Shown here: positions 5,992-64,000 of the stretch, piece by piece
Numbering within the stretch: position 1 is the first letter of the stretch
Layout of the letters: the number at the start of each line of letters is the position of its first letter
Assembly (NCBI GenBank): GCA_963971425.1
Contig: OZ020518.1
Coordinates: forward strand, 16,186,990 to 16,250,989
Length of the DNA: 64,000 nt
Direction of reading: 5' to 3'
Origin: Bryoerythrophyllum caledonicum
Taxonomy: Eukaryota; Streptophyta; Bryopsida; Pottiales; Pottiaceae
Notes under the pieces: model-generated
What the model was told of the DNA's origin: nothing
Seen by the model: only the letters and a program-made list of their open reading frames with translations
The model's database searches: none
Translations under genes and position numbers: made by a program

Positions 5992-6100
5992 CCTTACTAC
6001 GCCCTTGGAAAACAAATGGGAAACCGCTCACCTACATGTCAAAGAGGACAACTCCTGCACTGAACCTGAATTCTCAAACCAGGAGAAAACCCAAGTCGCA

Positions 6101-6119
6101 AAACCCTAAACCCTAAACG
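6101..6119. promoter_or_regulatory. Telo-box-like AAACCCTAAACCCTAAA upstream of KTI12
   Basis: Two consecutive plant telomere-type units lie about 110 bp upstream of the KTI12 start codon. Short telo-boxes (AAACCCTA) are common in 5' regions of plant genes for translation machinery and cell growth, which would suit a tRNA-modification factor. The regulatory role is inferred. Confidence 0.45.
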
Positions 6120-6121
6120 CT

Positions 6122-6727
6122 ATGGGGCATCTCCGATTCCGAAAGAATGGCAAACGCAACAACAGGGAGCCCCGTATTCCTTGCACACGGTCGTTGCGGA
6201 GCTCCGTCTTCGGGCCGAGTCGCTGCCCGGGCAGCTGCGGGGAGAAAAATTTGCCGCTCATTCACGAAGTTGGCGGAGGTCCCGCCCAAACCCTAGCCGC
6301 CTCATTCTCCCGCAGCCTCATTCTCTCCCACAACATAGTTCTACCGCAGCGTTGTTCTCCCGCAGCCACCGCGTCTATTCACAGCATCGCATCGCATCAT
6401 CGCAACACAACATTGCATCGCAGGATCGGAACACAGCATTGCATTGCAGCATCGCAACACAGCATCGCATCGCAGCATAGCATCGCACAGGTTCATAGCA
6501 TTATTAGCAATAGACTTGCAGGTTTTGAACTTCTAATGGATTTGCAGACTAGTACCGTGTTCTTGTTGTTTTTGTCTTGCATTCCTAATCACGTTCTTGT
6601 AGTCACGTTCGAAGTGACATTGAAAGGTGCTTATGTGCTCGTTTGCAGGGCTCGAAGCCTGTTTCTGAAGTTGATCCCGACGGAGCCAGGGTGCAAGAAG
6701 AAGGGAAGCGGAAGGGAGCTTTCATAA
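6122..6727 (+). other. Open frame of 201 codons, not recognised; probably not a gene
   Basis: A long open frame divergent from KTI12. Its middle (about 6370-6490) is low-complexity, built from GCATCGCA/CAACACAGCAT-like units. Its first part (6164-6255) is repeated inverted at 8112-8212. No known domain is visible. The segment after a possible acceptor at 6648 reads in another frame as a charged peptide to about 6745, but nothing supports it. I treat this as repeat-derived DNA open by chance. Confidence 0.3.
6164..6255 (+). repeat. Inverted repeat, left copy
   Basis: About 90 bp running from the 'ccgtattccttgcacacggt' area through 'gggccgagtcgctgcccggg' to 'ggggagaaaaat'. It recurs reverse-complemented at 8112-8212 with few changes. 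Weaker similarity (CTCCCGCAGC-rich) continues beyond it in both copies. Confidence 0.8.
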
Positions 6728-8111
6728 ACATAAATTTCCCATGTTGAATTCTCAGCATAAATCACGTAAATATCAAGAGCTCCTTGAAGACCGAGAAACA
6801 ACAATATCTCTCACGAGCCATGCACTGAAAAAAGGAACAAAATCTATGGAGCAGATGGCTCTCGTGTGAAAACAGATGGATTGGACACCAAAGAACTCGA
6901 AAGTTTGCAACAATAACTTCACTTATGATTTTCAGAGAATTTGGTAGCACCGGTCACAGCCTTGTAAAAACCTGAGAAATTACCGAAGACTATTGGGAAA
7001 CAATGGTTCTCATCTTTTGCTTCTCATGGTTGTTGGTCCTGTGCATACAACAAACTCTTGAAAATCAAAAGCTGGAATATGTAGATTGTAACACACTGAT
7101 CATCACAGGAAAGCGATGAACTAGTAGCCAAACATATTTGAAGATACATACATGTTGCTTGTAACAAGAGACGCTGCAGCTAACACTGCTTCATCACACG
7201 CCAGGTTCACTCTCACCCTCTACAAAAGTGGAAAATGAATCTACTTCGACTTCAAAAAACATCAAATTATGGTTTACCCTCTTTTTTGTGGAATTTTCAC
7301 CAGGGAGCAGAAATTGGAGCAACCATAGAATTGTTCATCAGCCGAATGCTCACATGAGTGATAGTTAAAACTAGTTCATCAGAATAGTCACAAAATCAAT
7401 AGCTAGTGGTCATAGTATATGTGATAATTTACACATGAAATGTTTATCGAAACTATGATCACGTGACATTAAACGGCATGACTTGAAGTCTTGTACAAAT
7501 TTTGTTCTTTGACAAACTTGCCTAGGTGTGTCTATCACTAGTTTCTTCTAATTGAAATCTGAAGGGATGTCATTGATCCTATCACAATGAACTCAGTCTG
7601 CTTTCAAAGGTATTATTACCATGATGTATAATTTGACGTGTATTCTTGAATCAAGTCTCGCTTCTCATTGTGTGTTCCCATGAGGACAGAGTGTTCATCT
7701 ACATAGCTCATCAATGGAAAGAAGAAAGTCATCCCTCCAACAAAGAAGGAATGTAGGTATGAAGGACGCTTGAAATCCTACTAGGAAGGAGTGCACCATG
7801 GTTTACTAGTACAAGCGGTTGATTAACCTGTTACACACATGAAAGATTACAAAGGGTCAGGCTTTGTACAGTTGCAGGCCTATGATCTACAAGCCCCATC
7901 CTAAACCGAGGGCGTGGTGGCTGCGGGAGAACGAGGGCGCGCTAGCTGTGGAAGAATGACGCTGCGGGAGTGCGGAAGACCGACGGTTTGCAGGCTACTG
8001 CGAGGGTTTGGGGAACGACGCTGCGGGGAGTGGGGGAGATCGAGGGTTTGGGTGCCGGAAGACAAAGTAAACTGGGGGACCTTTTTTTGATGGCCAGGTA
8101 TTGCCCGGGTA
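6728..8111. other. Spacer between the inverted repeats
   Basis: AT-rich and without a supported gene. The short open frames lack motifs. No transposase-like signature is visible between the two inverted repeat copies. Confidence 0.4.
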
Positions 8112-8212
8112 TCGGGCACGATGGATTTTTCTCCCCACAGTTGCCCGGGCAGCGACTCGGCCCGAAGGTGGAGCTCCGCAACAACCGTGTGCAAGGAATA
8201 CGGTGCTCCCAA
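8112..8212 (-). repeat. Inverted repeat, right copy
   Basis: Reverse-complement partner of 6164-6255, about 1.85 kb away. CTCCCGCAGC-rich sequence follows (7900-8050 on the minus strand), as in the left copy, but with about 80 extra bases between the conserved blocks. The pair could mark two solo copies of one repeat or the ends of one decayed element. Confidence 0.8.
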
Positions 8213-8749
8213 CAACAGCTGCATCATAGGACAAGCATGAAACTCCCATCTTTCCAATCTCCAATCGGTTGAGACAATAACGAACTACAATGATTTATGT
8301 GAAGAAAGTGAACAGAGAAATGTACTCATTGTGTAGATGTTGTGGTGCAGAATCTATTAAACCAAAAAATCTACAGAAACTTCTTTTTGCATTGATGAAA
8401 TGAGTGAGGATCAAAGGGATTCTTTTTTTGGACCCTACCGAATGCATGTTATACTTCTCCTATAATACCCAAGGTTCTTTAGAAATCAACCATTACTTTC
8501 ACCACGCTTCTTCTAAGCTTTGAAATTTTCTTGTAAGTTTCAAATGTGGTTGAACATATTATTAAAGGGATATAAAATAGGAAGATGACAAAATGATCAT
8601 CCCTTTGTAATTTTTAAATACTAGATCTTATTTTTAATATTTCCTAAGCCGGCATCTTTACTACCCATGGTTTTTTTCCCTTGATTAGCTCCTTGAAAAG
8701 GTATGTGATAAAAGATTTGTCTTAACTTCTAAGGGCCAAAGTTCCAAGG

Positions 8750-9640
8750 TGGGCTTTTGCAAATCATCGGCACATTTTCATGATCGCAATTTATATTCTT
8801 AATTCTTGAAATTTTGTGCAAAGATGCAAGAAGATAAGAATCAAATGGGTATATAATTTAATTCTTACCGGCTCTATAAAAATAAAGTTATGTCATCTTG
8901 AAGAAAATTGTCAAGGATGGACATGCCAAGCAACTTCAAAAACTTCAACACTTTATTTAATGTGGGATTTTTTTTTATATATGTGATTAACATTATTCTA
9001 TTCCGGATTGTAAAAGAAAAAACCTTCCATTACGTGAAAATTTCACTCTGAGACAAGTCAAAGTTATTTCACTATTTTCGGACAAGGTGCAAAAAAATCT
9101 CATTTCTTCATAAAAATTGGAATTCTGAATTTTTCAATCTTTTGGTTTTTTTGCTTCAAAAATAAGAATGAACCTTTGTCCTGATCATTTGGATTTTCAA
9201 TTATGTGAGAATGGCTTTAAAAAAAAAACAAAATGGTGTATAGTGATTTTTTAACCTCTTTTCATTGCTTAATTTTTTGAAACTGCTTCCATTCTCCAAT
9301 ACCTGTAAAAATTGGTGTATAAAAAAATAACTTCAAACAAATGATAATGTTATGAACTCTAGGACTTTTGTGATGCAAAAATCCAAGACTAAGTGAAGTC
9401 AAAGTCCGTCAATCCTTGAAATGCAGGTTAAAATAAAAGCTTTTTCTTCACTTCAAATTCTATAGTATTCCAATCCATGCATTCAAAGCTCATGCAAAAC
9501 TTGTAAGTATTTGTTTCTATAGATAGAACTTAAGATCTTATGGTTGGAGATGGGAATCAATTTGACTTTATTATTCTCTATCATTCTTTGCACTACAAAG
9601 TTGCAAACACTCTTTGAATGCAGAGATTGCAACTTTGAAG
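8750..9640 (+). repeat. Dispersed repeat family R1, diverged copy
   Basis: Shares the ordered phrases 'attcttgaaattttgt', 'ttatg.catctt', 'aaaattggt.ta', 'aagtgaagtcaaag' and 'cttcaaa..ctata' with copies near 20.9, 23.9, 40.7 (inverted), 42.7 (inverted) and 46.5 kb. Ends are unclear in this copy. No coding capacity is seen. Confidence 0.5.
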
Positions 9641-11050
9641 TGTTTTAGAGGAAGAAATTATGAAGGAATTTTAGAGATTAAGATCATCTCTATACCCAAA
9701 CTCTAAACCTGAACCGCTAGGGCGAGTAGCAGGGCAATAATGATTTCTTCACCTCAATAGACTCGTTATTAGAGCTCCAAGAGTTTGGAGCTCTCCAGAT
9801 TATGCCTCTCACATGCCAAATATGTGGACTATTAATAGCCTTTGAAATATTTTGCTAATAATGGGTTAATTGTGTGTCAAAAGCCTACACGCAACACCAT
9901 TGCTCCATCACTCTCTCGAGTACGCAGGTCAGGGGCCACGATTGTTGTTAAATTACCTTTCTAGGTTGGGGATTGAGGTTGTTTATTCGGCACTTAACTT
10001 GTTGCTCAAATATACTCGCTAGTTGACTCTTTCTATCCTCGTTGAGGGCTCCTATTGCAGACATGGAATGAGGATGCTCTAAGTGAACTTCTTGTGAGTA
10101 AGGACATAAGATGGATCATGTGTGATTGATTCTTGGGGAACTTTAGAGCGCTTGGAGAGAAATTTCACTTGCATTGGATAGGTTCTATGACCTGCCAAGT
10201 CCTGCCAATATCAAATATAATATTGATTGGTGTAGAGTAAAAAAATTTGAAATATATATTTAGGTGCAACATATACCCAGGCCCTCTTTAGAGAAACTTT
10301 CTTCCATCTTTAGTTGATATAACTTTGAAGTTACCACAATTTTATTTTCAAATATGTATCATACCATTTATATTTTAAAAGTCATATATAAATGTAGCCA
10401 TTAAAATATTAAGTAGCATGAAAAACCTTCTAGGTTGCAATGGTCGCAAATCTAAGGCATCATTGAGTGAATCTTCCCATGATTCTATGTGTATTGTAAA
10501 TCATCTTTAGCTAAAATTTACACAAGACAAAGGGAGGTTTGATGGAGTCTACAATTCATTGTTTTTTGATAGGTGGTCTTTCTTCTCCCTTTTCAAGTTT
10601 ATTCCTCCATTATTGCATTTAAAACTTTGGTATATTGTAACATTAATGTCATGTGAGACTTAGAATTTGGAGGCCAAAGGCTTTGAAGTGACATGTGTCT
10701 ACTCATTGACTAAGACATCATTGACAACAAATTAGTACCACTTAGTAAAAAATCCAACCCTCACTAATTTTGGGGACTTTTCAAAATAGTCAAGAGTGCT
10801 TTCGGAATGAGTGTTACAGGCATAGTTAATTAGTATAGTAATTTATGGTTAGTCTAGACCTTACATGACAATACTTGTTAGTGTGTACAGTCCCCTTCAG
10901 TAAAGATATGTGAATCACTAACAAAAAAACTGCCATAACTATGATAAAGCTACAAATTTGACTTGCCACTACAACCTCAAAAAAGCTTCAAATCCAAAAC
11001 TGTAATGTGCATTGGAAAGGCAATAGTCTATAGAGTATTGTTGCAAGTTG
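9641..11050. other. Intergenic DNA
   Basis: AT-rich sequence without a recognisable gene, RNA or complete repeat. Confidence 0.4.
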
Positions 11051-12264
11051 TTAGGTTAGTATTCCTCCGGTTAGCACTTAATTGTCATTAAGTACAACCA
11101 AAATAAACCGCTCCGGTGTTGTTCCCACAAAGACCTATTGTTCCTTTCCTAAATGATAAACAAAACTAAACTACCAAAGACCACTCCACAAGTTAGTTTT
11201 CCTACTTAATTAGATCCAAATCCTTCCGGATTCCGGAGTTCTTACAATAGCTTTCGGAACTAATTTCCGGACAACTATAAATGGGTTTGATTTATCTCTG
11301 TTCCTCCTTAGAGAGTCTTCCGGACGATTTAAACGAGTGACCGGAAGGCCACCGATCATGTTTTGTGTAAGTGGCCGGATTCTCCACTGTCTTATGACTT
11401 GAAGTGGCTAGACACCCACTCTCCCTACTCCACTAACCGGTGGACGAGTGTTGTTGCCGGACCTACGCTCTCACAACATCCGGATGGCCATCCCGGCAGA
11501 GGTAAATCCGGACTACAACGACATTCCGGTCGATACTACAGTGGTTCTACTAAAGTGAGTTTTATAATTTGCAAATGAATCTCCTTCTAGACATACACAT
11601 CAGGCTTTTTCCCTATCGTAGGGGGAGATTCCGGCCTCAACCGGAATCTGGGCTCACACGGATATTCCGTGCCTTAGAGGCTATGAGGCACACCTCTGCA
11701 ATACACCTCTTCCCCTCCTGGCTACTTCCGGACTCTGAAGAATGTCAGGGCTCTCCCTAATCTCTTCTCCAGCTCTTCCGAGCAATCTTCCAATGCAAGC
11801 CCCAACCAGTTACTCCAAATACCAACACTTAAGACACGAGAACTAAATCACCATCCTTCAACCACAATGGATCCGTTCCTCACAAGAAAACACTTAATCA
11901 CCATAAGTTTAGGATAACAAAATAGTGATAGATGGAAAACGTTCTTAGTGAGAGAAACAAGATGATGAGTTTCCTAAAACTCATCTATTAACTAAATTCC
12001 TAAACTAGAATCTACGGTCTACCTTATCCGCGAGAAATTTGAAAAATCCTATCCTAATAGCAAAAAGGTCTTATTCCTAAAAATCCGGAAATCCAATCTC
12101 AGATCCAAAAATCAAGGATCTCAGATCTGGATTTTCCGCCGGTAAGGAAGTTTATGGAATTGGTTAACCTAAGGTTTGGCAGTCGGGTGCAATCATGAGC
12201 CCCATCGTTTAATCGCTACAAAATCTAAGTAACAAACAATTCCTAACTTCAATCCTAAACCTAG

Positions 12265-18167: not shown

Positions 18168-19162
18168 GGGAGATCCCTTCAAAAAGGAGGTGGTCTCAGG
18201 CAGAGCAATGTTTTTGGCGATTTGGAGCCAAATGGAGAATTTTTTTTCCAAAAAACAAAATTTCAAATATTCCTCCAAACGTGGGAAAATTATGATGTAA
18301 TATCGCCAAAATTGCATTGATGGCCATTTTCATATTGCCATATTGCTTCTAGTGAAAAGCAAGGACTCCGTCATGTTACCAAAAACTTAAAAGGATGTAC
18401 AAATCAATGTTTATGAAGATGGATTCTCCGAAAAAGATGTATATGGAAATTTTTTGGTTTTGTATGGTTTCAGGAGAAAGTTTATGTCGCCACATGTCTG
18501 GCCTCCAAAAAATTTGTGTCGCCACTCTGGCTAAAACCGTGAAACAAAAAAAAAAGCCTTGGTCCCACTTCCATACCTTGATTCCTATGGGTGGACGGCG
18601 TTGCTTGAAATTTTGGGTACGAGGTACAAATTCGTCAATCTGAGAGGGTAGAGGAGCTATGTGCCTTGATTTCATATACTGTACTGCCCTCTTCTGTCCA
18701 TACTTGATGTTTACCTCTATTGAATCGGTAATAGAAGTGGGTATACGCTATATAAGGTCGGATAACCTATCACCACCACTAGCCCCAGAATCAACAATCT
18801 AATGCGGGCCAAAACCACCAGCCGCCCACCCCATTTCCGAAATTTTAGGAAGTCAGTTATGATTGGGTGTCAGTTTATAATTGGTTCAAAGCTCTCAGTT
18901 TTTAGTCTCTTGCACAAGTGGTCATTCGCACAACTTACTGTGGAAGTCGAGAGTTTTGTATGTCGAGAATGGGTCACGACTTACTATCCACTTAAAAAAT
19001 TTGTAGCAATTTCAATATGAAGAAATAAATGGTCACGACAATTGCAGTATTCATGAAATCCTATTTTGAATTCCCAAAAAAAAAAATTCCATGTATACGA
19101 ATGCTATACATAGGTCAACAAGCTTAAGTTGCCAGTTGGTGGTTACAGGTCATCCAACCTTA

Positions 19163-19652
19163 GTGTGCATGGCTCCTAGAGTCAAGGCAGACGCTTCCAT
19201 GCATTATTACGTTGCATGGAAGTCTGCACACAAGCTGAGGTCCTCTCATACGCGCACACCAAGCGTGGAAGATACTTCATGAACTGGGTCCGGCCACCGA
19301 GTCGTGCCAGATTTGTCTTTCATCCTTCTGGGCATCCTTCTGGGCTTCCAGACACATCAAGTACTGTAGGCTTCAATGTCTGCAGTTGCGGTGGGCGCTG
19401 TGTCACGGCTCACACTCAAGTTCCGAGTGACTCCACCGAAGTCACCATGGAAACCGACACCAGCCTGATGAGCTGAGTCTCAAAATCTGGATGAAGAAAT
19501 CCATGGAGCAAATGAGAATCCTGTGCGAATTAGTGGCGCTAATTGTGCGCAGCCAAAGCTTGTCTGTGGCTGTTGGACTCGAGTGACGCTCCCAACAAGG
19601 CCAAGTTTCAGAAGGATGATCATTGATGATCCTGCCTTTCACCCTTGATCAT
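19163..19652 (+). repeat. Long inverted repeat, left arm (490 bp)
   Basis: Matches 22649-23138 in reverse complement almost perfectly; chance open frames of 86 and 66 codons translate identically from both arms. A further short match (18720-18748 with 23145-23173) lies outside the arms. On the left it is separated from the arm by about 410 bp that the right side lacks. The near-identity points to a recent event or ongoing sequence exchange. Confidence 0.95.
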
Positions 19653-20879: not shown

Positions 20880-21480
20880 GGCCATGTTTGTCTTTTATAA
20901 CAACCTTGCTTGTGCATGTTCCCATGGTTGCAATATATATTTACAATTCTTGAAATTTTGTACAACGATACAAAAAGACAAGAGACACACATTGTGTACA
21001 TAATTTGTATTCCGATCCGACCTACTTATGCCATCTTAAAGGAAAGACTTCAGGAATTGGCAATTTTTGAACTTCCACTCCTTGCAAAATTGTTTTGAAT
21101 ATGCTACATTTTTTTTTTACCTCTAAAAATTGGTATACAAGGAACTAATATCATGCTTAGCATGATGGTAATGAATTTAGACCTATATAGTGTAAATATT
21201 TTGACACCAAGTGAAGTCAAACTTTGTTGATCCACTTTAGGCAAGGAAGAAAATGAGCAGTCTGTTCTACTTCAAATACTATAGAATTTCAATGAATTGT
21301 GGAGTCAAAGATAATGAAATGTTGTATGTGTTAATCAAGATTCTACAACTAAAACTAGAAAAAAATACAGTTAAAACTAGAAAAAAAAATTAGAAATAAT
21401 TCTTTGACTTTACTTGGTGTCATAATCGAGATCCTACAGTTAAAACTAGGAAAAAGAACTATTTTATGTTTCCTTTCCTT
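20880..21480 (+). repeat. Dispersed repeat R1 copy
   Basis: Aligns by eye with the 23.92-24.50 kb and 46.49-47.07 kb copies: 'ttggcaatttttgaacttcc', 'actccttgca', 'tttgaatatgctaca', 'ctctaaaaattgg', 'caccaagtgaagtcaaa', 'gcaaggaagaaaatga'. Confidence 0.7.
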
Positions 21481-22648: not shown

Positions 22649-23138
22649 ATGATCAAGGGTGAAAGGCAGGATCATCAATGATCATCCTTCTGAAACTTGG
22701 CCTTGTTGGGAGCGTCACTCGAGTCCAACAGCCACAGACAAGCTTTGGCTGCGCACAATTAGCGCCACTAATTCGCACAGGATTCTCATTTGCTCCATGG
22801 ATTTCTTCATCCAGATTTTGAGACTCAGCTCATCAGGCTGGTGTCGGTTTCCATGGTGACTTCGGTGGAGTCACTCGGAACTTGAGTGTGAGCCGTGACA
22901 CAGCGCCCACCGCAACTGCAGACATTGAAGCCTACAGTACTTGATGTGTCTGGAAGCCCAGAAGGATGCCCAGAAGGATGAAAGACAAATCTGGCACGAC
23001 TCGGTGGCCGGACCCAGTTCATGAAGTATCTTCCACGCTTGGTGTGCGCGTATGAGAGGACCTCAGCTTGTGTGCAGACTTCCATGCAACGTAATAATGC
23101 ATGGAAGCGTCTGCCTTGACTCTAGGAGCCAGGCACAC
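22649..23138 (-). repeat. Long inverted repeat, right arm (490 bp)
   Basis: Reverse-complement partner of 19163-19652. See that entry for the comparison. Confidence 0.95.
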
Positions 23139-23189
23139 TTTACTGCGTATACCCGCGTCTATTACCGATTCAAGTACGTAGTAAATATA

Positions 23190-23919
23190 GTACCATTAGG
23201 TACACTAAACGCTAAATATAGTGTGGATACATTGGTAACGTGGGTGAAAAATGTTGCGAACCACATCAATTTTGGTTATGGAACAAAATGAATGGTGTTG
23301 AGTGGAGGTGAAGTGGTAGTGAGCAGTGTGACACATGTTGAAATGGCTCCACTCCTCGTTGCTCATTGTCACCTTTTCATCAATCCACATTAATTTTGTG
23401 TCAACAATTTGGGAACATCCCACACTCTTTTATGAGGTTCATGATTTGAAGTGGATTGAGAACTGAGGTGGACCATTGTAATTTGCGTATACTGGAACTA
23501 GTACATGTATTTCAAAATAGTCTGGTCCATAGTATATCCATTGAACCATGTAGTAGGTTCATTCCTTGATTTTGTTGGTTTATTACTGCAAAGATTATCT
23601 AGGGAAGACTTGGGAGCCAAAAAGGAACTACATTATCTATGGTTTTTATTGTTGTTTGCAACATAAAATACAAACACAAACATCAAATGTCAACAAATGC
23701 CTAAATGTGGTTAATACTAAATTTGGGTCTAGTAGTATTTGCTAACTTTCATATAAAATTTGGAGTAGGAAAAAATTTGCATGTGTACATATGGTGTAAG
23801 GTTTTGCCAACCCCCTATCTTGGCTTGACATAGTATTAATATTTACCGTATTGTACAACATAATAACTTATACTAAATTTCAACTTGTTTGAATCTAGAA
23901 TGAGCTATATTTGGGCAAG
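23190..23919. other. Spacer
   Basis: No gene or clear repeat. A fragment near 23200-23230 with 'tacactaaacgctaaatatagtgtgg' looks like a single TIR remnant of the M1 type. Confidence 0.35.
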
Positions 23920-24500
23920 GTACCAACAAGACTACTTCCTTTCTACATAAAACCTATGTTTCTATCTTCATATTTTTCACTTTTTATTTTCTTGACAACA
24001 ATATGTGATGAAAACCTTCTTATTGGTTGTTTGGATTATCATCCTAAAACATATCATGTTCACAAGAATATAAAATATGAAATGACAATTTTTGAACCTC
24101 CACTCCTTGCACACTTGTTTGAATATGCTACACGCCTTCTTTACCTCTAAAAACCGGTGTATGAAGGAACTTACATAATGCTTAACACAATGGTGATTGA
24201 TTAAGACCTTGTTTAGTGCAAAAATTTGATACCAAGTGAAATCAAAGTTTGCTCATCCACTCAACGCAAGGAAGAAAATGAACAATTTGCTTGGCTTTAA
24301 ACACTATAATCTTTCAATCCGTGCAGTCAAAGTTTATGGAATTACGTGTGTATGTTACTTGAAGAGTTTGAACTGAGATTCTTTGGTCAAAAATATAATT
24401 AAAAGTTTTGTTTCCTCCCTTACTCATTGCACTAGAATCAACAAATTTTGAAGTGTTCTTAGTGTGAAATTGTCAGCGTCTTTTAGGGGTTAAGATACTA
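23920..24500 (+). repeat. Dispersed repeat R1 copy
   Basis: Shares with 46.49-47.07 kb the order 'ggcaaggtacca', 'cataaaac', 'gtga..aaaccttcttattg', 'aatttttgaacctcc', 'actccttgc', 'gcaaaaatttgataccaagtg' and 'gcaaggaagaaaatga'. It ends 'cttttaggggtta', like the TIR of the related 41.3 and 46.1 kb elements. Confidence 0.75.
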
Positions 24501-40718: not shown

Positions 40719-40734
40719 TTATGCAATTGCTTTT

Positions 40735-41110
40735 CTTCCTCGTAGTGAGAGGATCAACAAACTCTGACTTCACTTGGGGTCAATTTTTGCAGTAAACAAA
40801 GTCTAAATTTTCTACCACTATCGTGAACATGAGACAAGTTCTTTGTATGCCAATTTTTAGAGGTAGAGAAGAGATGTAATATACTCAAAAAAATTGTACA
40901 AGGAGTGGAGGTTGAGCAACAACCAACTCATTCTTATTTACTTGTGAGTTTAATATGTTTTAGAAAGAGAATCCAAACGGTCAAATAGGAGGATTACACC
41001 ACATTTTGTAAAAGAAATATCAAGACCTTTAATTTTTATGTGGAAAAGAAGACGTTGTTTTGGTACCTTGTCCAACAATGTATGAAAATTGTTGACATGT
41101 GTTAAATGCA
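40735..41110 (-). repeat. Dispersed repeat R1 copy, inverted
   Basis: Reverse complement shares 'acaaggtaccaaaacaacg', 'atgttttagaa', 'acctccactccttgtac' and 'aagtgaagtcagag' with the plus-oriented copies. Confidence 0.65.
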
Positions 41111-41306
41111 TATTTACAAGAAACACAAGATTCTTTTTTACAATAAAAAATAAAATAATATTCCTTGCTTGTGCTAAAATCTCACACTTAATTGAGTGTG
41201 GTGGCATGCTTTGCCTCGCTAGTTTCTTTTAAGATGGCATATCTATATTTCTAAAGGTTCAATGCAAAGAAAATGTATTGTACAAGAATATAATATTCTA
41301 TTGGTT

Positions 41307-41717
41307 AACCCCTAAATTTCCAAGAGTCCCCTTGGGAGAACTGTAGAAGGTTTGGGCAGGTAACTCCTGCATCAATTTATAACATCATTTTTTTGAAGTT
41401 TTTACAGTAGATGGAAATTACTAAAAGCTTTGTGTGAGTTCAATTTTTTCTCAAATATGACAATTTATGAAAAAGTTATAGGGTTTTGAACTCCAAAAAC
41501 TTTTGCTATAACAAGATTACTAGGTGGTATAGAAAATATTACAATCCGTGCGGTCAAACTTTATAAATTTTTTTGTGTTAGATACTCAATAAGTCTTGAT
41601 TGAGATCCCACGGTTTAAACTAGAAGGATTTTTTTTTGTTTTGTCCTTACTAATTGCACTAAAACGGGTAGTTTTGAAGTGTTTTTGGTGTGAAATTGTC
41701 AAAGAAATTTAGGGGTT
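41307..41717 (+). mobile_element. Short-TIR element T1, internally deleted copy
   Basis: Ends AACCCCTAAATTTC (41307-41320) and GAAATTTAGGGGTT (41704-41717) are perfect inverted repeats. The first about 190 bp match 46124-46310, and the last about 180 bp match 46892-47071. The roughly 540 bp between them in the 46.1 kb copy are missing here. Confidence 0.85.
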
Positions 41718-42689
41718 ATCAAGGAGTTTAATGGATTTTGCTTCAATAATGTTAAAAGATAACATTTTGATATCTTCTATTTGCTGTATAATCAGTGTAG
41801 CATGTTCATTTGTCTCTTACCAAGCGGCCACTTCCACGATTTGGGTGTTAAAAAGGATTGTCCTCATGAAAATTTCAAATATCCCATACAAACCTGACTT
41901 TGGAACTTTTGGTCTCAATAACATATGTAGTTGGCCTTCTTTAAATGTTATAGTTGGCCTTCTTTAAATGTTACCTCTTTCTATGTTATAATCTAGGATA
42001 TGTTATGGAAACTGGCGCTCTCTAAAAATTTACACTATTAGTGTTGTTTGTTAGGTCTTACTGCATAATCTGGAAATTTACTCTCCCGAATTTATTGATT
42101 TTACTTTTATAAGAATTAAATTTGGAAAAAATAGAGAAACTACACGGCGGTAAATAGAAGTAGGGGTAGTAAAATGTATTGTAGGGCAGTAAAAATGGCC
42201 AGGTAAAAACACAACTTTGGATTTAGGGTGACTGTTTTGGATGAAAATTGGTCTGGAAAATGAAAATATTAGATAAAAAGTGGCTAAAATTGGATGAAAG
42301 AACAATAAATATTATTATTGATATGTAATATGTTTTTTTCTCACGGTCAATAACATTTAAAGAGGGCTGACTATGACCCTAAAGTACTTAAACTATGTTT
42401 CACCAAAACTCCTCATTTTAGTACAAAGAGTGGAATTAGAAAATAAAGTTTTTATTTCTATCTCCAACCACAAGATCATAATCTACACTAATAAAATCAC
42501 ATGCTCACAAATTTTCATAATCTTTGACCATATGGATTAAAAGAATAAAAATCTCCAATTTTAATTTTGAATTAGCTCATTCTTGTATAAATTGAAAGTT
42601 CAAATGTTCCAAAAGTTCCAAAAAGAATAAAATGAGAAAAACAATAACGAGCTCCAATTCTTACAAAGAAGCAAAATTTGTTTTGTGCA

Positions 42690-46123: not shown

Positions 46124-47071
46124 AAACCCTAAATTTCCAAGAGTTACTTCGTGGGACTTTAGAAGGTTCGGGCAGGTTCCTCCTGTGTCGATTTATGACA
46201 TTATTTTTAAAAAAAATTTACAGTAGATGGACATAACTAAAAGCTTTGTGTGAGTTCAATTCTTTCCTAAATCTGACATTTTTTGAAAAAGTTATAGGGT
46301 TTTGAAGTTTGAATGGGGAGAGCAGGCACGTCGGCCAACTCCAATTTCTTTTGCTATGACACTCTATTGAATGTGCAAATTTCTTTACTAGCTAATAATA
46401 TTGTTTTCTTTCATATTGTCAAAAAAAATCTCTTGTCTTTAGTGAAAAAAAGCATATAAATCCAAGTCAAACATTTTCACACATTATCTCACATAGTCGG
46501 GCAAGGTACCAAAAAAACTTCTTTTTTTCACATAAAACTTTGAGATCATCATATTTTGTACTCTTTATTTTTCCACAGCATTATGTGGTGTAAACCTTCT
46601 TATTGACCACTTGGATTCTCATTCTAAAACATACTAAGTTTGCAAAAAAATATAACACAAATTGACAATTTTTGAACCTCCACTCCTTCCACAATTTTTT
46701 TGAATAAGCTACACCCTTTCTCTACCTTTAAAAATTGGAGTACAAGGAACTAATATCATGCATAACATGATAAAAATGAATTTAGACCTTGTGTAGTGCA
46801 AAAATTTGACACCAAGTGAAGTCAAAGTCATCTGATCTACTAAATGCAGGGAAGAAAATGGACCCTTTTGTCTACTTCAAACACTACAATATTACAATCT
46901 GTGCGGTCAAACTTTATGATTTTTTTTGTGTTAGGTACTCAATAAGTCTTAATTGAGATCCCACGGTTAAAACTAAAAGTAAAGGCTTTTTGTTTCGTCG
47001 TTCCTCATTGCACTTAAACGGGCAGTTTTGAAGTGTTTTTGGTGTGAAATTGTCAAAGAAATTTAGGAGTT
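46124..47071 (+). mobile_element. Short-TIR element T1, longest copy, containing R1 core
   Basis: Ends AAACCCTAAATTTC (46124-46137) and GAAATTTAGGAGTT (47058-47071). The interior contains the R1 core found at 20.9 and 23.9 kb ('aatttttgaacctccactcc', 'caccaagtgaagtcaaag'). So R1 copies are probably fragments of T1 elements. No transposase frame is present; it is 948 bp and non-autonomous. Confidence 0.8.
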
Positions 47072-48139
47072 ATAATACGGCTATGACACTTAATATTGTA
47101 ACACTTTGAGACCCCCACTTTGTTAATAAATGCAATGGGAACATGTTATCCTGTTGCGAACAAGTTGTGAACGCTGGAACCAAGGTGTGAAGAATGGGAA
47201 CACGTGCATCATAGATTACGGCTCATCTTTCTCGTAGATACGTTTTGGCAACCTTTAGCGTAAGCCCCCCTAAAACCGACAAGTTAAGGAATGAGCATAT
47301 ATGCAGAGAGGAGATAATTATACTATTATTTTTCAGTGATAGCCAATAGAATTACAATTCCAACCCAAGTGATTTCACATTATTCCGATGAAAACTGAAT
47401 TAGTTATGAATTTTCAAACTGTGCAGCCATGTTTAGTGGGTGGCCAGCAATAGGTACCCCCATAACCAACCACCAAAGCAAGGGTCTTGACTATTAGCAA
47501 ACCTCCATTTGGAGCTCAGTTGGTGGTAATGGGATGGAAGAGGGTTGGACATACCCCAATTTTACAGGCGTTGGCTATGGGTTTTGGTTGGTTATGAGGG
47601 GGCTTACCTTAGAACTTTCGTGGGTTGGAACAAGCGTGTCTACCTTGGCACCATTTCTAGATGGATTCCAACTCGAAGCCGCCTACGAAGGATCGCAGCT
47701 TGTCGATCTGATATGTAAAGCCTGATCCTCAACGACATTATTTAATCTCGCAGAGTTCTGTGATTGTATGCTGCACTTCTGATAGTTATCTCCTTTGCAA
47801 ACTTCTAGTGGTAGGGTTCCCGTGTCTCAGTTTCTGAACGTGGGCGATGATGATTTGCTGCTAAGGTTTTTGTGCAAACGATGTGGTTGTAGGATCTTGG
47901 ATTGTGACAACCAGATATGTCGTTGTTTCATAGTATTTGGATTCGAATACAGTTTGGATCGTAGGTTTTTGGTCTTGTGTGGCGTCTTTCTTTCTTTCTT
48001 GGTTATCTGGGGTCCCTTCTTCATTTCCCTACAACATGACTCTCCTGCTACAAGGACTCACATTTTTAGGTCAAGGAAAACATGGTCTAACTTCTGGTTT
48101 TTGGATTGCTGCAGAAGTGGGTAATTTGGGTCAGTGAGC
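47072..48139. other. Upstream region of the dioxygenase gene
   Basis: Contains several open frames without motifs (47534-47725, 47795-48137). A likely 5'-UTR intron ends at the acceptor 'ttgctgcag' just before 48115, 25 bases from the start codon. Its donor could be 'gatatgtaaagc' near 47714, but this is a guess. Confidence 0.4.
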
Positions 48140-55532: not shown

Positions 55533-58500
55533 TCAGTAGTTTTTGCTTTGCAGCTTGACGAGTTCAAAGTAGGCGCCCTTCTTCGCCATGAGCTCGTTGT
55601 GCCGGCCCTGCTCGTGGATGGAGCCCTCCTGGATGACGGCGATGGAGTTGGCGTTCTGGATGGTGGACAGGCGGTGCGCCACCACGATGGTAGTCCGGCC
55701 CACCATGATGCGGTCCAGCGCGTCCTGCACGACCTTCTCGGACTGCGAGTCGAGCGCGCTTGTGGCCTCGTCCAGGAGCAGGATACTGGGGTTCTTGATG
55801 ATGGCTCGGGCGATGGCGATGCGCTGCTTCTGCCCGCCGGAGAGCTGCAGGCCCCTCTCGCCCGTGTTCGTGTCGTACCCGCTCGACAGCCCGCAGATGA
55901 ACGTGTGCGCGTTCGCGGCCTGGGCGGCCTCGATGAGCTCGGCCTCCGAGGCGTCCTCTTTCCCGTAGAGGATGTTCTCGCGGATGGTGCCGGCGAACAG
56001 CGTGGGCTCCTGGCCCACGAGCCCGATGTGGCGCCGGACAGTCTTGAGCGGCAGGGTGCGGATGTTGCGCCCGTCGATGAAGACGGCGCCCTGGAGTGGG
56101 TCGTAGAAGCGCTCTATCAGCCCGATGATGGTGGACTTCCCTGACCCGCTCTGCCCCACCAGCGCGATGCTGGTGGCCGCCTGTACTTCGAGGGAGAATC
56201 CCTTGAAAACCATCACGTCGGGGCGCATAGGGTACGCGAAGTGGACGTCCTTGAGCTCCACTTGCCCTTCCACTTTCTCCAAATTGCCCTCTTCGGCCTT
56301 AATGCGGGTGCTCCGGTCGAGGATGCCGAAGATGGCCGCAGCGGACTGGGAGCCTTTGGAGAGGTCCGAGGTGGTGCTGCCGGCGTCGGCGATCATGCGG
56401 CCCGTGCTGACGAGGACGAAGAAGACCTTGAACATGCCTTCGAACGTAATCTTCTCATCGTTGATTAGCTTCGCGCCGTACCAGAAGTAAAAGGCCCATG
56501 TGGCCAGCATCAAGAACTGCGCCAGGCCCAGGCCCAGGCCCGCGATCAGCGCCCGCGTGCGTGCGCCGCGCTTGAGCGAGTCCTGGGTCGCGTTGAACCG
56601 CTGGCACATCTTGTTCTGGGAGTGGAACGCCGTGATGGTGCGGTGGTTGTACACCGCCTCGCTCGCCACAAGCGTGGACCGCGCCTGCGACTTCAGGTTC
56701 CCACTGCTCATGCGCTTCTGCAGTACCTTCTTGCCGTAGAAGCACAGGATGGTGATGGGCTGGGTCACGATCATCACGATGGCAAGCGGCCACGCGACCA
56801 CCAAGCCGATAATGCAGGCAAGTACCAGCGCTGCGCCGGTCTGGATCAAGAGTGACATCCGGTCTCCCACCAGAGACCGCACCACGGCGGCGTCCGTGTT
56901 CAGCTGCGAGCACACGGCGCTGCTTGAATGCTCCTCCTCATCGAACCACGCCACCTCGAACGTCATCACGCGCGTCAAGATGAGCTCGCGCACCCGCTTC
57001 GTCAGCCTCTCCCCCATGCTCGCGAAGTTGTAGTCGCGCGTGACGTTCGTGAACACGCACCCGATCGCAAGGGCCGTGAAGATCAGCGAGAAATTGCGAA
57101 TGCTCCTCCTCATCTTGTCGTGATCCTGCTCGAAGAACGTCGACACCATGCTCCCCATGCAGAACGCATACAACGGCTGCACGAAGCCAAACCCGGCCGC
57201 GCCCATGGATCCCAGGATTGCCTGCTTCCACTCCGGCCTGTTCAGCTTCAGCAGCCGCCCGATGGAAGGAGGCTTCGCCGTCGTCTCATCTGCTGCTTTC
57301 GTCGCGTCCCCGAAACTGTGCACACTCACCGACCTGCGCACGCTCGAATCTCGCCTGAAACTCGTGGAGTTTCGCTTGCTGGATGAGCTTCTGCACGCAT
57401 AATACCACAACCAAGGGTTCAAGATAGGTGCGATCCTCTAGAGGAGATTTAGAGAGATGGGATACCATACCTGAGCTGGAACGTGGACGGAACACTCGGT
57501 GAATCCTCAGTTGCGTCGCCAGCAGCGACGTGAAGAATGCCATCATCGGGGCGGGAGTTCTGGATGTTGACGAGCGCAGAGTAAGCGCCGCCGTCGTTCT
57601 GGAGCAGCTCCTCGTGAGAGCCAATCTCGACCACTCGTCCGCCGTGAACCACAGCGATCATGTCCGCAGTGCGGATGGTGGACAACCGATGCGCGACCAC
57701 GACGGTGGTTCGCCCCACAGTCGCCTGGTCAAGCGCGACCTGGACGACACGCTCCGACTCCGAGTCTAGCGCGCTCGTGGCCTCGTCCAGGAGCAGAATC
57801 GGCGGGTTCTTGAGCAAGGCGCGCGCAATGGCGATCCTCTGCTTTTGCCCTCCCGACATCTGCACTCCCTTCTCGCCCACCATGGTGTCGTACCCTTGCG
57901 GCAGCCCGGAAATGAAGGTGTGCGCGTTGGCCGCCTGCGCAGCCGCGACGATTTCGTCCATAGAGGCGCCATCCTTGCCGTAGAGGATGTTCTCCTTGAT
58001 CGTGGTGGCGAACAAGCTCGGCTCCTGGCTCACCAGCCCAATCTGCATCCGCAGCCACCGCAGCTGCACGTCCTTGATGTCGGTCCCGTCCACCAGCACA
58101 GCCCCTCCCAATGGGTCGTAGTAACGCTCCAGCAACGCGATCACCGTCGACTTCCCGGAGCCGCTGGATCCAACCAGCGCCATCGTCTTGCCTGCGGAAG
58201 ACAAATTCACGATCACTAACGGCAAGTCTCAAACCGAGAGAGAGCCAGGGAAGATTGTGAATCGTTTCTGACCTGTCGGGATGACCAGGCTGAAATCCTC
58301 GAAGATGATCTGCTTGGGGCGAGACGGATACGCAAACCTCACATTGCGAAGCTCCAGGATGCCGGTGACCTTCTCCGGCGTCTGCCCCGACATGTTCTCG
58401 GAGTCGATGTCAGGCACGCGGTCGATCATTGTGAACATCTTGTGAGCGGCCATCTGCGCCTCCGCAATGTACCGCAAGTTGGGCAATGCCGTCCCCAAAC

Positions 58501-60480: not shown

Positions 60481-61082
60481 TGTGGTAAAAATATTCACCG
60501 ATAGTAGTGTTCATAAATCATATACCCTATGCTTTGGTCAGTTTTGTACATAATTAATTCAAAATGGGAACTTGTCCAAAATTTTGGAAATTTCAAGAGA
60601 TTTGGCTAGGCGATACCGTGCAAGATCACTCGTGCAATACCTATGTGATATCCATTGTGTCGAATCAATGTGACCAAAAAAAAATGCTTCGGCACTTGCC
60701 TGCCGGAACTGACCGTAGCGTACGGTACAGTAGTGTGCCTACTAAAACATCGTACTTGGGAGCCTAATTGCAGCAGCGAATCCGGGCAGGCTGTTTTCGG
60801 AGGCCCCTGGTCGCCACTGCTGACGCTTTTCACCACTGCCTGTGGCATCGCTGCTAAATTAGTAGACTACCTCTAAATTTGCTTGGAACCGTTGGGTCCC
60901 CGAATCGTTTGTCCGCATGTCCAGGCTCTCATTTCGCTGCAGTTCGTTTCCTATCTTTTGTTTTTAGCACAAATAAAACAAAGTCTGATTGCCAAGGGAT
61001 CTGCACTAGGACCTGTAGTTGCCCTCATATTGCTGCAGTTCGTTTCCGAGAGTTCATCTTAGCTCTTCACTGGGAGTGTGCA
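60481..61082. other. Spacer before the retroelement
   Basis: No supported gene. 'gctgcagttcgtttcc' occurs twice (60937-60952 and 61033-61048) with similar surroundings, a local short duplication. Confidence 0.4.
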
Positions 61083-61104
61083 CATGCTTCAAGAAGAAGA
61101 AGAA

Positions 61105-61129
61105 CGCCGGTACCGAAGGGACCGGCGTG
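61105..61129 (-). terminator. Hairpin at the 3' end of the retroelement
   Basis: ACGCCGGT and ACCGGCGT form a perfect 8-bp stem around a 9-base loop containing CCTTCGG. On the element strand it is followed at once by four TTC repeats. Such 3' structures are often the recognition site of LINE reverse transcriptases. Confidence 0.65.
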
Positions 61130-61373
61130 AATAAAGTGTCTGTTCGTTCCATTACTAAGACCATGCCCACCGGACAAGGAATTAGTAAGTAGGAACTACT
61201 TCCCCCTCTCGAGGGTAGACACTATGTAACGGGTAGCCAGAGACCCGCCAAGCAAACACCCAACCAACTAAACATCCATCAAACCAAACAAGTAGCCAAA
61301 AACACAAACAAACAAGCAAGAAGCCATGAACCCCAAGACCAACCAGTCAAGAAAAATCGAAGCGGGGGAAAAG

Positions 61374-62294
61374 TCAAGGAAGGTCTTGTGTATCGGGAAG
61401 GGCTTGATTGTTTTCAATTTTGCGTTTGTGTGGTAAAATAGACATGGCATATTGAGTAGCGATAGTGTTAATATTTTTAAAGGTGTTTTTAACTGTATCA
61501 ATGGGTATTCTGAAGGTATCTTCTAGAGTCTTTATAGATGGGATAAAGGTGGTGGCACGGGCGCCGGATGTGATTACAATTAGGGGGTCCACATTCCATC
61601 CAAGGGCCATGATGTCGTCAACAAGGGGTTGGTATTTATCTATTTTATTTTGGATTGTTTCCGGGGAAAATCTATCGTTGCAATATGTGAATTCAATGAA
61701 TTGAATGGTGTAGTCTTGGTTGATGTTATCGGGTGGTGGGTCATTGTATGGTAAGCCTTTAATAGAGAGGATGTCTGGTTTGAGCCTAGCATTGCAATGA
61801 CATCTTTGGGTCATACACGAGCATGGGAGTAACCAAGGGGGGACCGTATTCTCTTGTGGATTATTATTATAAGTACCGGCGTTCATTAGTGTAAAACATC
61901 TTGATTTATTGTAGGAGGTGATTAGCTTTCGGATTTCCCATACCGCTTTATTATGTCTTTTAACAATTAGAGAGTGTATGTGGTGGTTTTGGCATTTGAG
62001 TAGGACATGGAGCCATGTGTCGGGGTCTGTTGAGGGGCATATTGGACATGTTATGGATGGGAATCTTTCTATACCAAAGAAGAGTTGTTTGCGAGCATTT
62101 CCCATATATTGACCCGTACGGAATTTGATGAGGCAAGTTATTTGCGAGTCTGAGATGATGGGGTTTTTCCAAAAATTTGTAGAGAGTTCATTGTCTATGT
62201 CGTTATTGTTAGTCCATTTTTCTATGTTAGGAATATTTTCTGAAATTGTGTCAAGGTTGTTGTAGAGGTCTTGTTTTTTGAGATATTTGCCCAA
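61374..62294 (-). CDS. Retroelement C-terminal region: CCHC knuckle plus restriction-like endonuclease
   Basis: A 306-codon frame. Residues about 81-99 hold C-x2-C-x9-H-x4-C (CPICP…WLHVLLKC), the zinc knuckle that precedes the endonuclease in R2-type LINEs. Further on, after a Cys-rich CSCMTQRCHC piece, come RLKPDIL, then IEFTYCNDRF, then KIDKYQPLVDDIMALGW. These fit the R-x-PD…(D/E)…K pattern of restriction-like (PD-(D/E)XK) nucleases used for target cleavage. The tail is basic. The frame overlaps the end of the RNase H frame by 73 bases in a different phase. This is probably one ancestral ORF broken by a frameshift near 62.25 kb. Family assignment is by motif recognition only. Confidence 0.8.
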   Translation of the reverse strand: MGKYLKKQDLYNNLDTISENIPNIEKWTNNNDIDNELSTNFWKNPIISDSQITCLIKFRTGQYMGNARKQLFFGIERFPSITCPICPSTDPDTWLHVLLKCQNHHIHSLIVKRHNKAVWEIRKLITSYNKSRCFTLMNAGTYNNNPQENTVPPWLLPCSCMTQRCHCNARLKPDILSIKGLPYNDPPPDNINQDYTIQFIEFTYCNDRFSPETIQNKIDKYQPLVDDIMALGWNVDPLIVITSGARATTFIPSIKTLEDTFRIPIDTVKNTFKNINTIATQYAMSILPHKRKIENNQALPDTQDLP

Positions 62295-63328
62295 AATCTA
62301 ATTGGGCCTTTGTCGGGGGTATCTTCCTTGGAAGGCCAATCTTCTTTTTGAAAGTAGTATGGGGTAGCATGGGCATGTTCGTGTGGGTCTTTGGCATTTT
62401 TGTGTGTTTTTTCTCGGCCTTCTTTTGCTAGTTTGTCTGCTTGTTCATTGCCATCAATGTTGGCATGTGCTCTCACCTTGTGGAGGGTTGTGATTTGTGT
62501 ACGGTTTTGTAGCATTTGGACCATTGATGTTAATATGTTTTGGTCGGGGTGGCTATTGTGAAGGGTAGGGTGTGTTATTTGAGTGTTAAGTAGGTAGAGT
62601 GCATTTATACAATCGGTGAATATATGTGCGGGTTCATCATTGTATTTTGTTGTGATGATTTGTAGTGTTTTGTGGATGGCCATGAGTTCTGCTCTGAGGA
62701 TATTTTGTAGTCCATGTAGTCTTTTGGCTAGTTTAATTACTTTGGTAGAATTATATATGCCATAGCCAGCTTTTTCTCTGTGCCAAGAGCCCGGGCTAAT
62801 TTGTTCTGGTGGTTTAAAGGAGCCGTCGGTGTAATAACTGTATGTGGGGTTAAATTTTGGTGTAGTATGGGTTTGGTAGTCTGGAAGAGGGGGATGTATG
62901 GTGAAGTAGTTTAATGTGTTGTTGACATAGTTTAGTTTTGACCAATTTTTACTTTTTTTTACCAGGGTTTGTATGGATGTTGGTGAGGCCAGTTTTGTGT
63001 ATAGTCGGTGTATGCTTAGATTGTCTATTATGGAGGTAAGTTCTGCAAGTTGTTCTAGAGAACCAAGGGTTTTATTTCGATGATGGACGCATAGTATTTG
63101 TAATGTAGATGGCTCTATTTGGGGTTTTTTTAGCTCGGGTGGAATAGTAGGTTCTTCGTATGGTATTGTGTCTGCTTCAAAGAGTGCACTGATATGGGAA
63201 TCTGGGAATGGGTTTGGATGTTGGTTGTTGTTTTGGTACCAGTTATTGTTCGGTGTGATGATGATTGTTTTTGTGTTATTTGGATCGTGTTTGGCAGCAA
63301 GTCTAGCCCAATGTATGGCTTGTTCCAT
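62222..63328 (-). CDS. Retroelement polyprotein segment: Dam-like region plus type 1 RNase H
   Basis: A 368-codon frame. The second half is an RNase H with all four acidic residues in place: YTDGSF, RAELMAI, IFTDCINAL and DGNEQADKLA. The first half (EQAIHWARLAAKHDPNN, TIIITPNNNWY, FPDSHI, IPYEEPTIP) is unlike reverse transcriptase or a connection domain. With the preceding frame it has the layout of a class I adenine methyltransferase: an FGSLGKAF-like start, then W-x-G, then a block at the DPPY position (here AHPH), then a helix and a TIIITP strand. The methyltransferase idea is tentative, and the altered DPPY-like motif argues against activity. A TAA and a frameshift near 63.34-63.40 kb disconnect it from the upstream frame. 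Confidence 0.75.
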   Translation of the reverse strand: MEQAIHWARLAAKHDPNNTKTIIITPNNNWYQNNNQHPNPFPDSHISALFEADTIPYEEPTIPPELKKPQIEPSTLQILCVHHRNKTLGSLEQLAELTSIIDNLSIHRLYTKLASPTSIQTLVKKSKNWSKLNYVNNTLNYFTIHPPLPDYQTHTTPKFNPTYSYYTDGSFKPPEQISPGSWHREKAGYGIYNSTKVIKLAKRLHGLQNILRAELMAIHKTLQIITTKYNDEPAHIFTDCINALYLLNTQITHPTLHNSHPDQNILTSMVQMLQNRTQITTLHKVRAHANIDGNEQADKLAKEGREKTHKNAKDPHEHAHATPYYFQKEDWPSKEDTPDKGPIRFWANISKNKTSTTTLTQFQKIFLT

Positions 63329-63377
63329 GTCCTTCTCGTTGTGGGGGTGGGCTATGCCATTACCGGTTTATTTGTAG

Positions 63378-64000
63378 TCAAAGGCCTTTCCTAGGGATCC
63401 AAATATTGTCTCTTTCATAAGGTGAGTAGAATTTTTTTAGTTTGGTAGAACATGTGACCGGGGAAGAAAAATATGATTGCTTGATATTAAACGATGAGAT
63501 CAGTGAGTCTAAAATGGGAGTGGGTATTGTGTATTGGGCATTTTTGAGGGGGTCAGTTTTTGGTATTCGGTATTTATACCTTTGGTAGAGCCATATTAGT
63601 TCGGTTTCAAAGGGTTGGGTCATTGGTTCGATGTTTGTAGGAGTTTGTAATTTTGTATTATATTGATTCCATAGCCATTGGAGTCGGGTAACGGGGATGG
63701 TGTGTAAATGTCGGCCGTTTTCTTCGTATAGATGTGCTTGATTGTTATCTATTTGAATTGTGTTTGAGGATGTAAGGATATCATTTTTGGGGTTGCATTC
63801 TGTTTTGTAGATGTTTAAAAGTGGGATAATTATGGGTGGTTTTACGGATCTTGAGTCCGAGAATTGTTCTTGTGGATGGTGGGCAAGGGTGATATCTAAG
63901 TATATTTTGTTTTGGATCTTTTGGTAGTATTGCTTTAATTTTTCGGTGTTATGTGTGGAGGTATTGGCGTCATGCCGTGGAAAAAGGTCTCTTTGGGGGA
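63378..64000 (-). CDS. Retroelement polyprotein, upstream segment (partial, runs off window)
   Basis: The minus-strand frame is open from the window edge to a TGA at 63378-63380. Visible protein includes TRLQWLWNQYNTKL, FETELIWLYQRYKYR and TCSTKLKKFYSPYERDNI. It is continuous in sense with the RNase H frame after a frameshift (the next phase gives FGSLGKAF). No YxDD or other reverse transcriptase motif is present in these 207 codons. I do not recognise the fold. Confidence 0.6.
   Translation of the reverse strand, partial: PQRDLFPRHDANTSTHNTEKLKQYYQKIQNKIYLDITLAHHPQEQFSDSRSVKPPIIIPLLNIYKTECNPKNDILTSSNTIQIDNNQAHLYEENGRHLHTIPVTRLQWLWNQYNTKLQTPTNIEPMTQPFETELIWLYQRYKYRIPKTDPLKNAQYTIPTPILDSLISSFNIKQSYFSSPVTCSTKLKKFYSPYERDNIWIPRKGL

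Follow-up and report, generated by a model that had tools for sequence, protein, structure and literature searches.

A decayed insertion in a moss genome is probably derived from a recently active dual-endonuclease retrotransposon with a PCIF1/CAPAM-like domain

The window analyzed here is a 64,000-nucleotide stretch of the moss Bryoerythrophyllum caledonicum (GenBank assembly GCA_963971425.1, contig OZ020518.1, forward-strand positions 16,186,990 to 16,250,989; C6:16186990-16250989 in the genome search described below). It contains a single 5'-truncated retrotransposon insertion on the minus strand, which occupies 61092-65252 in window numbering and runs past the window edge at 64000. Homology to better-preserved copies of the same family begins at 65252, near the end of the reverse transcriptase (RT) region, and stops at the 3' tail. 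We consider it probable that this is a decayed insertion of a recently active, 12.6-kb, Dualen/RandI-like retrotransposon without long terminal repeats (non-LTR) that has two endonucleases, one resembling the apurinic/apyrimidinic endonucleases (APE) and the other the restriction-like endonucleases (RLE). The features of the copy are as follows.

61092 to 64000, continuing to 65252, minus strand: 5'-truncated, frame-broken retrotransposon copy, delimited by homology to better-preserved copies; one or two terminal bases at its 3' end possibly belong to the target-site duplication (TSD) as well
61080 to 61091, strand not assigned: 3' copy of the 12-bp TSD TGAAGCATGTGC; the 5' copy is at 65253-65264, beyond the window
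63149 to 63722 (approximate limits), minus strand: PCIF1/CAPAM-like domain (PF12237), interrupted by one frameshift close to 63410 and by the TAA at 63368-63370
within 63371-63403, minus strand: FGSLG motif, like that of PCIF1
within 63338-63358, minus strand: AHPHN, at the position of the NPPF of PCIF1
62414 to 62839, minus strand: RNase H with D-E-D-D (PF00075, 8.4e-14, in the stretch 62225-63367)
62816-62836, 62678-62695, 62597-62620 and 62417-62476, minus strand: acidic motifs of the RNase H, YYTDGSF, RAELMA, FTDC and NEQADKLA, respectively
61992 to 62048, minus strand: CCHC zinc knuckle CPICPSTDPDTWLHVLLKC
61923 to 61958, minus strand: RHNKAVWEIRKL, counterpart of the R2 RHN block in a profile alignment with R2
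61794 to 61826, minus strand: CxCx4CxC cysteine cluster immediately preceding the PD motif, with all four cysteines unchanged across the six sequences of alignment A1
61560 to 61784, minus strand: R2-type RLE-like core, comprising KPD, IEFT, KxxKY and the next strand
61767-61784, 61680-61706 and 61623-61649, minus strand: motifs of the PD-ExK block, KPDIL, IEFT and NKIDKY, in the contexts LKPDIL, IQFIEFTYC and NKIDKYQPL
61374 to 61376, minus strand: stop codon of the second open reading frame (ORF2)
61104 to 61128, minus strand: terminal hairpin of the 3' untranslated region (UTR), followed by the (TTC)n tail; in this copy the hairpin is two bases shorter and mismatched

Read along the minus strand from 63998 to 61374, the copy consists of three successive open stretches, in frame 2 to about 63417, in frame 0 from about 63415 to 62300, and again in frame 2 to the stop at 61374. 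The breaks are frameshifts near 63410 and near 62300 and the in-frame TAA at 63368-63370. The RNase H is consequently in frame 0 and the CCHC/PD block in frame 2, as would be the case if the two belonged to different elements, one nested in the other. We regard nesting as effectively refuted. One TSD flanks the entire copy, and 8 of the 10 copies examined, all but the window copy and C12, encode the RNase H, PCIF1-like and RLE motifs in a continuous frame. These ten are the window copy and nine others fetched with their flanks, mostly picked for long frames; among the eight with one frame, C14, C7a and C2 are near-identical to each other. A relative that is 77% identical in the RLE region keeps the same domain order within one 858-amino-acid (aa) frame. 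Because TGAAGCATGTGC flanks the whole window copy and the domains share a frame in most copies, we conclude that the stretch is one decayed insertion. The first-pass annotation, made from the letters of the window, had placed an RNase H with all four catalytic acids just ahead of the CCHC and PD-ExK motifs and had named nested elements as one outcome that would refute its reading; the order is confirmed on the minus strand, in a frame-broken copy, and nesting is excluded.

A copy that is truncated at its 5' end and bounded by a TSD is what target-primed reverse transcription characteristically leaves. Insertion of the window copy into a TTC microsatellite was considered and rejected, as no TTC run occurs in the target reconstructed from the TSD and the flanking sequence. 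Repeat comparison inside the window found no second copy of the element there.

The C-terminal region downstream of the RNase H is highly likely to be an RLE, judged from its resemblance to R2. It occupies the same place as in R2, and in a profile alignment against three R2 RLEs (PDB sequences) the zinc knuckle, RHN, KPD and KxxKY fall in register, with a score equalled by 1 of 500 column shuffles. The full ordered motif CCHC-RHN-KPD-E-KxxKY is present in 3/3 R2 proteins, in the window and in the more distant, partly fetched copy L030 (C11:14750800-14754300). None of 200,000 shuffled versions of the window protein contains it, with patterns that were written post hoc, after the sequences had been seen. 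A shorter version limited to the core turned up in 4 of 100,000 shuffles; of 233 ORFs examined, 19 contain it, and all 19 show the RHNKAVW...NKY letters of the element itself. In R2, KPD and the lysine preceding KY mark residues that we take to be catalytic; chain 8ibw reads KPA at the KPD position. The CxCx4CxC cluster, which is absent from the three R2 sequences compared (alignment A3), is possibly a second zinc site.

Several observations weigh against the RLE assignment. The region has no Pfam match and no PDB sequence match, including in a search of the PDB with the A1 profile. In hhalign the comparison with R2 has a probability of 3% (E 0.015) from very shallow profiles, and 2 of 6 pairwise R2 comparisons are within noise (z 0.56 and 1.36). 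The glutamate E179 was assigned by hand, and hhalign puts the acidic strand elsewhere. An AlphaFold model of the region (A1, 6 similar sequences) had a predicted local distance difference test (pLDDT) score of 36 and is not usable. The lack of Pfam and PDB matches and the two comparisons at noise level, together with the presence of an APE-like domain that would make an RLE unnecessary for nicking, are what favor the alternative that the C-terminal block is another zinc-associated domain of an APE-type element in which the PD and KY motifs are coincidental. We consider this quite improbable given the C-terminal position, the ordered motif and the rarity of comparable profile scores among shuffles. 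The silence of Pfam means little, because none of three true R2 RLEs was convincingly recognized either (best 0.022). Profile searching, whose failure to find an RLE the first-pass annotation had named as a refuting outcome, gave no match in Pfam or the PDB, but Pfam does not recognize genuine R2 RLEs either; the broader claim that one retroelement joins RNase H, a CCHC knuckle and an R2-type endonuclease-like region is supported, with the RLE step likely. NCBIfam gave weak matches far under cut-off (RNase HI 0.006-0.009, one DnaD 0.048).

To place the window copy in its family, the 437,360,962-base assembly (894 contigs) was searched with a 307-aa C-terminal stretch. Of 9237 first-look candidates the best 129 were scored, and the window copy is one of these. 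These 129 matches are 93-100% identical to the query; 46 have open frames of at least 2340 aa, and in 14 the frame is exactly 2809 aa. Between unrelated flanks, C14 and C2 match each other along 12,610 bp at 99.92% identity with zero gaps. This sets the full length at 12,610 bp, and the identity indicates that the element moved recently. At an assumed rate of 7e-9 substitutions per site per year, the divergence of the two copies would be of the order of 50-60 thousand years. The full-length copies, with the 5' part whose recovery the first-pass annotation had proposed, carry both an APE-like and an RLE-like region.

An exact genome-wide search for the element's first 32 bases gave 23 occurrences (backward control, 0). 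For at least 15 of them an RLE match lies 11,396-11,429 bp downstream, in 12 cases at exactly 11,412 bp. TSDs were found at 3/3 copies tested: 11 bp in C14, 12 bp in C2 and 12 bp in the window copy, in three different sequences. The shown first and last ~60 bases of a full-length copy are dissimilar, indicating no LTRs, and the family combines an RT domain, 5' truncation, TSDs and a (TTC)n-like tail of variable length, as a long interspersed nuclear element (LINE) does. The genome holds two or more subfamilies, with 77% identity between them in the RLE region. No relatives outside this genome were found in viral contig, genome contig and phage collections, which are viral, bacterial and archaeal and say little on eukaryotes.

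Three further observations concern the surroundings of these copies. Between the TSD and the shared 5' end, C14 and C2 (L028, L029) have 18-19 bases that differ in sequence, perhaps as additions to the 5' junction. More divergent copies (L030, L026) lie directly downstream of well-preserved ones. The 5' flank of C14 resembles, by eye, a remnant of a related 3' UTR.

In C14, ORF1 is 546 aa long from the first in-frame ATG and the ORF2 frame is 2809 aa. The order along ORF2 is 2A motif, APE, R2-like RT, PCIF1/CAPAM-like domain, RNase H, CCHC and RLE-like region; the 2A motif and the APE are outside the window, and the PCIF1-like domain was absent from the first-pass annotation. On the coding strand of C14 ORF2, 1-kb blocks from 4000 to 12000 contain 37-46% A and merely 6-15% G. 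A strand poor in T and G eases long open frames, so frame length alone is weak coding evidence.

The RT is identified by Pfam (RVT_1, 5e-26), and its best PDB chains are R2 (2.6e-31); 8c8j, which we take to be the LINE-1 RT, scores weaker (7.3e-20). The RNase H is likewise recognized in C14 (RNase_H, 1.6e-11). For the APE, PF03372 scores 25.2 bits (1.6e-5) when the C14 region is scanned alone and 24.9 bits in C11a, with a cut-off of 24.5, and the region matches Exo III-like chains in the PDB (0.0008). Of the 9 fetched copies reaching this region, 8 contain an SDHSP motif; the exact pattern is unmatched in C15, and the window copy is truncated before it. Counting against the APE are its narrow passage of the cut-off, its absence from the list (E up to 1) when the whole of C14 ORF2 is scanned, and PF14529, which stays below its own cut-off in the region.

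The 2A-type motif of C14 reads GDIETNPGP, with 2342 aa after the break point, and a GDIETNPGP motif is found in the nine fetched copies reaching that far. The 2A consensus is D[V/I]ExNPGP, and it is present in non-LTR elements (PMC4981915). Seven other copies were examined for ORF1, and three have it (C7b, C15 and C9). It is only 33-47% identical among copies whose ORF2 bodies are nearly identical, a pattern that suggests an exchange of 5' modules.

Between the RT and the RNase H lies the PCIF1-like domain. In the window copy the first open stretch alone matches PF12237 (PCIF1_WW) at 5.6e-5 and 23.2 bits, under the cut-off of 31.1; read across the frameshift with X at the joints, the match reaches 3.8e-12 and 46.6 bits. 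C14 ORF2 gives 7.1e-10 and 39.2 bits, and the domain is above cut-off in 5/5 scanned copies with an open frame there (C14, C11a, C7b, C9 and L030). Stretches like the FASPLNC and FGSxG of the solved PCIF1 chain are found in it. On the other side of the balance, phmmer comparisons to PCIF1 are weak (0.023 and 0.3), a profile search of the PDB with alignment A2 found no PCIF1, and an AlphaFold model of the region (A2, 5 similar sequences) has a pLDDT of 36 and is not usable. PF12237 denotes a CAPAM-like methyltransferase domain, not a WW domain (PMC7641849), and NPPF is the catalytic motif of PCIF1 (PMC8868631). That motif is not retained: the position reads AHPHN in 10/10 copies and in all five rows of A2, a 64% relative included.

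Since the catalytic motif is lost, our best guess for the role of the domain, to which we give somewhat less than an even chance, is RNA binding, perhaps to the capped 5' terminus of the element's own messenger RNA (mRNA), rather than methyl transfer. A working adenine methyltransferase that marks the element's RNA or complementary DNA (cDNA), as has been suggested for retrotransposon DNA methyltransferases acting on DNA, would fit the scores above the Pfam cut-off, the low ratio of nonsynonymous to synonymous substitution rates (dN/dS) given below and the published retrotransposons with acquired working cytosine methyltransferases (PMC5890265), but the uniform AHPHN makes it unlikely. Among the papers listed by literature searches, taken by title and start of abstract, none describes a fusion of a PCIF1-like domain with a retrotransposon; subscription papers, preprints and Repbase were outside the scope of these searches, and the fusion may be known there. 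Retrotransposons are not mentioned in the main text of the PF12237 analysis (PMC7641849).

Comparing C14 with C11a, C7b and C9, dN/dS is 0.10-0.12 for the APE, 0.04-0.06 for the RT, 0.14-0.26 for the PCIF1-like domain, 0.06-0.15 for the RNase H and 0.06-0.14 for the CCHC and RLE. From these ratios both nuclease regions look to be under constraint. Two things temper this: the values are bare ratios, and spacers are less constrained, with dN/dS up to 0.51 between the PCIF1-like domain and the RNase H. Against L030, dS exceeds 1.3 in each computable segment (the PCIF1-like domain and RNase H are not computable), so that the comparison is saturated and the ratios say little. The region before the 2A motif is too diverged between subfamilies to judge (dS ~3 or undefined).

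The last ~150 bases of the element are also conserved. The C14 sequence folds with a z of -7.07, and 0 of 200 shuffles are as good. Two paired substitutions that separate subfamilies (CG to TA, TA to CG; L003 vs L013) leave the pairing of the terminal hairpin intact, and the hairpin is followed by the (TTC)n-like tail of variable length. Less favorably for a conserved fold, the 3' UTR of the window copy folds less strikingly (z -2.93, 1 of 200 shuffles as good). Of five distinct hairpins, those of L002 and L026 each contain a single mismatch and that of the window copy contains two. A search of L013, in which a C14-type 3' region lies, gave no Rfam match at the gathering threshold.

With respect to known elements, the RT of Dualen/RandI falls phylogenetically between the R2/CRE and the APE groups, and Kojima and Fujiwara, in 2005, are said to have described a cysteine protease in Dualen. 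No protease family was found in Pfam scans of C14 ORF1 and ORF2 pieces. The family shares with Dualen/RandI of green algae the RT, the RNase H and, very probably, the pairing of an APE with an RLE in one element; the PCIF1-like domain between RT and RNase H, the 2A motif and the 437-Mb plant genome would be differences from Dualen. An APE and an RLE are both described for Dualen, and the domains given for Dualen/RandI include RNase H (PMC4640811); reports of Dualen LINEs concern Chlamydomonas and its relatives (PMC8226300). Judged by these shared domains, the family likely belongs to Dualen/RandI. The comparison with this group in the first-pass annotation was apt, and the full copies additionally carry the APE-like endonuclease.

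R2 has the nearest RT among solved structures and the same CCHC-RHN-KPD-KxxKY C terminus. R2 elements encode a single RLE, without APE, RNase H or a PCIF1-like part, and are specific to ribosomal DNA, whereas the moss family has an APE-like domain, three insertions in different sequences and the extra CxCx4CxC cluster. With the APE-like domain and three differing targets, it is not a member of the R2 clade. Oomycete Utopia also combines an RLE with RNase H, but its RNase H is upstream of the RT and it inserts into U2 small nuclear RNA genes; APE is unmentioned in the available part of that paper (PMC4640811). APE-type LINEs with 2A share the D[V/I]ExNPGP motif in a non-LTR ORF (PMC4981915), to which the moss family adds the RLE-like region and the PCIF1-like domain. 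Compared with PCIF1/CAPAM, the cap-adjacent adenosine methyltransferase, the PF12237 region with its FASPLNC- and FGSxG-like stretches is the likeness, and the replacement of NPPF (PMC8868631) by AHPHN and the embedding in a retroelement polyprotein are the differences.

It could also be argued that the family entered the moss genome from a fungal symbiont by horizontal transfer, a scenario that very high recent activity would suit. Some Rhizophagus proteins may have a very similar layout. The two or more subfamilies at 77% identity argue against a single recent entry, and the words Dualen and RandI are absent from the available part of one paper on Rhizophagus elements (PMC11075540); we regard the transfer as doubtful.

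Elsewhere in the window, an inverted repeat of 491 bp, 99.8% identical and ~3 kb apart (19162-19652 and 22649-23139), possibly represents the terminal repeats of another mobile element. Dispersed repeats that are 71-89% alike occur at 23907-24498, 46493-47078, 40731-41199, 21055-21333 and 41535-41719. Two adjacent, related ATP-binding cassette (ABC) transporter stretches lie at 55533-58228, with 72.8% DNA identity over 511 bp (55658-56168 vs 57673-58183). A peroxidase gene is present (PF00141, 2.8e-9). Two window ORFs that by eye resemble plant receptor kinases have no significant Pfam match (Pkinase 0.096 for one).

The domains of the full-length element suggest how it might replicate. The 2A motif would detach the N-terminal part of ORF2 during translation, and the RT would recognize the 3' UTR fold. 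One endonuclease would nick the first target strand and so prime reverse transcription, with cleavage of the second strand possibly left to the other. RNase H would clear away the RNA, letting second-strand synthesis proceed. As a guess, the PCIF1-like domain would bind RNA, perhaps the capped 5' end of the element's own mRNA. The combined picture, in which two unrelated endonucleases are maintained by selection while a PCIF1/CAPAM-derived domain, its methylating motif gone, has been repurposed for recognition of the cap or RNA of the element's own messenger, is more tentative still than the RNA-binding role taken singly.

The position of Dualen, as a carrier of both APE and RLE, has been interpreted as showing that APE-type LINEs arose by RLE replacement (PMC4640811), and these elements have been described as comparatively obscure (PMC8226300). 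With both nuclease regions conserved in a family that is multi-copy and moved recently, the division of labor between APE and RLE becomes directly testable. Retrotransposons have taken up cytosine methyltransferases (PMC5890265), and a demethylase domain for N6-methyladenosine (m6A) is reported in orchid Ty3/Gypsy elements (PMC9289625). The PCIF1-like domain would lengthen this list of nucleic-acid modification genes captured by retrotransposons and, if the proposed role is true, would constitute a cap-recognition device inside a retrotransposon polyprotein.

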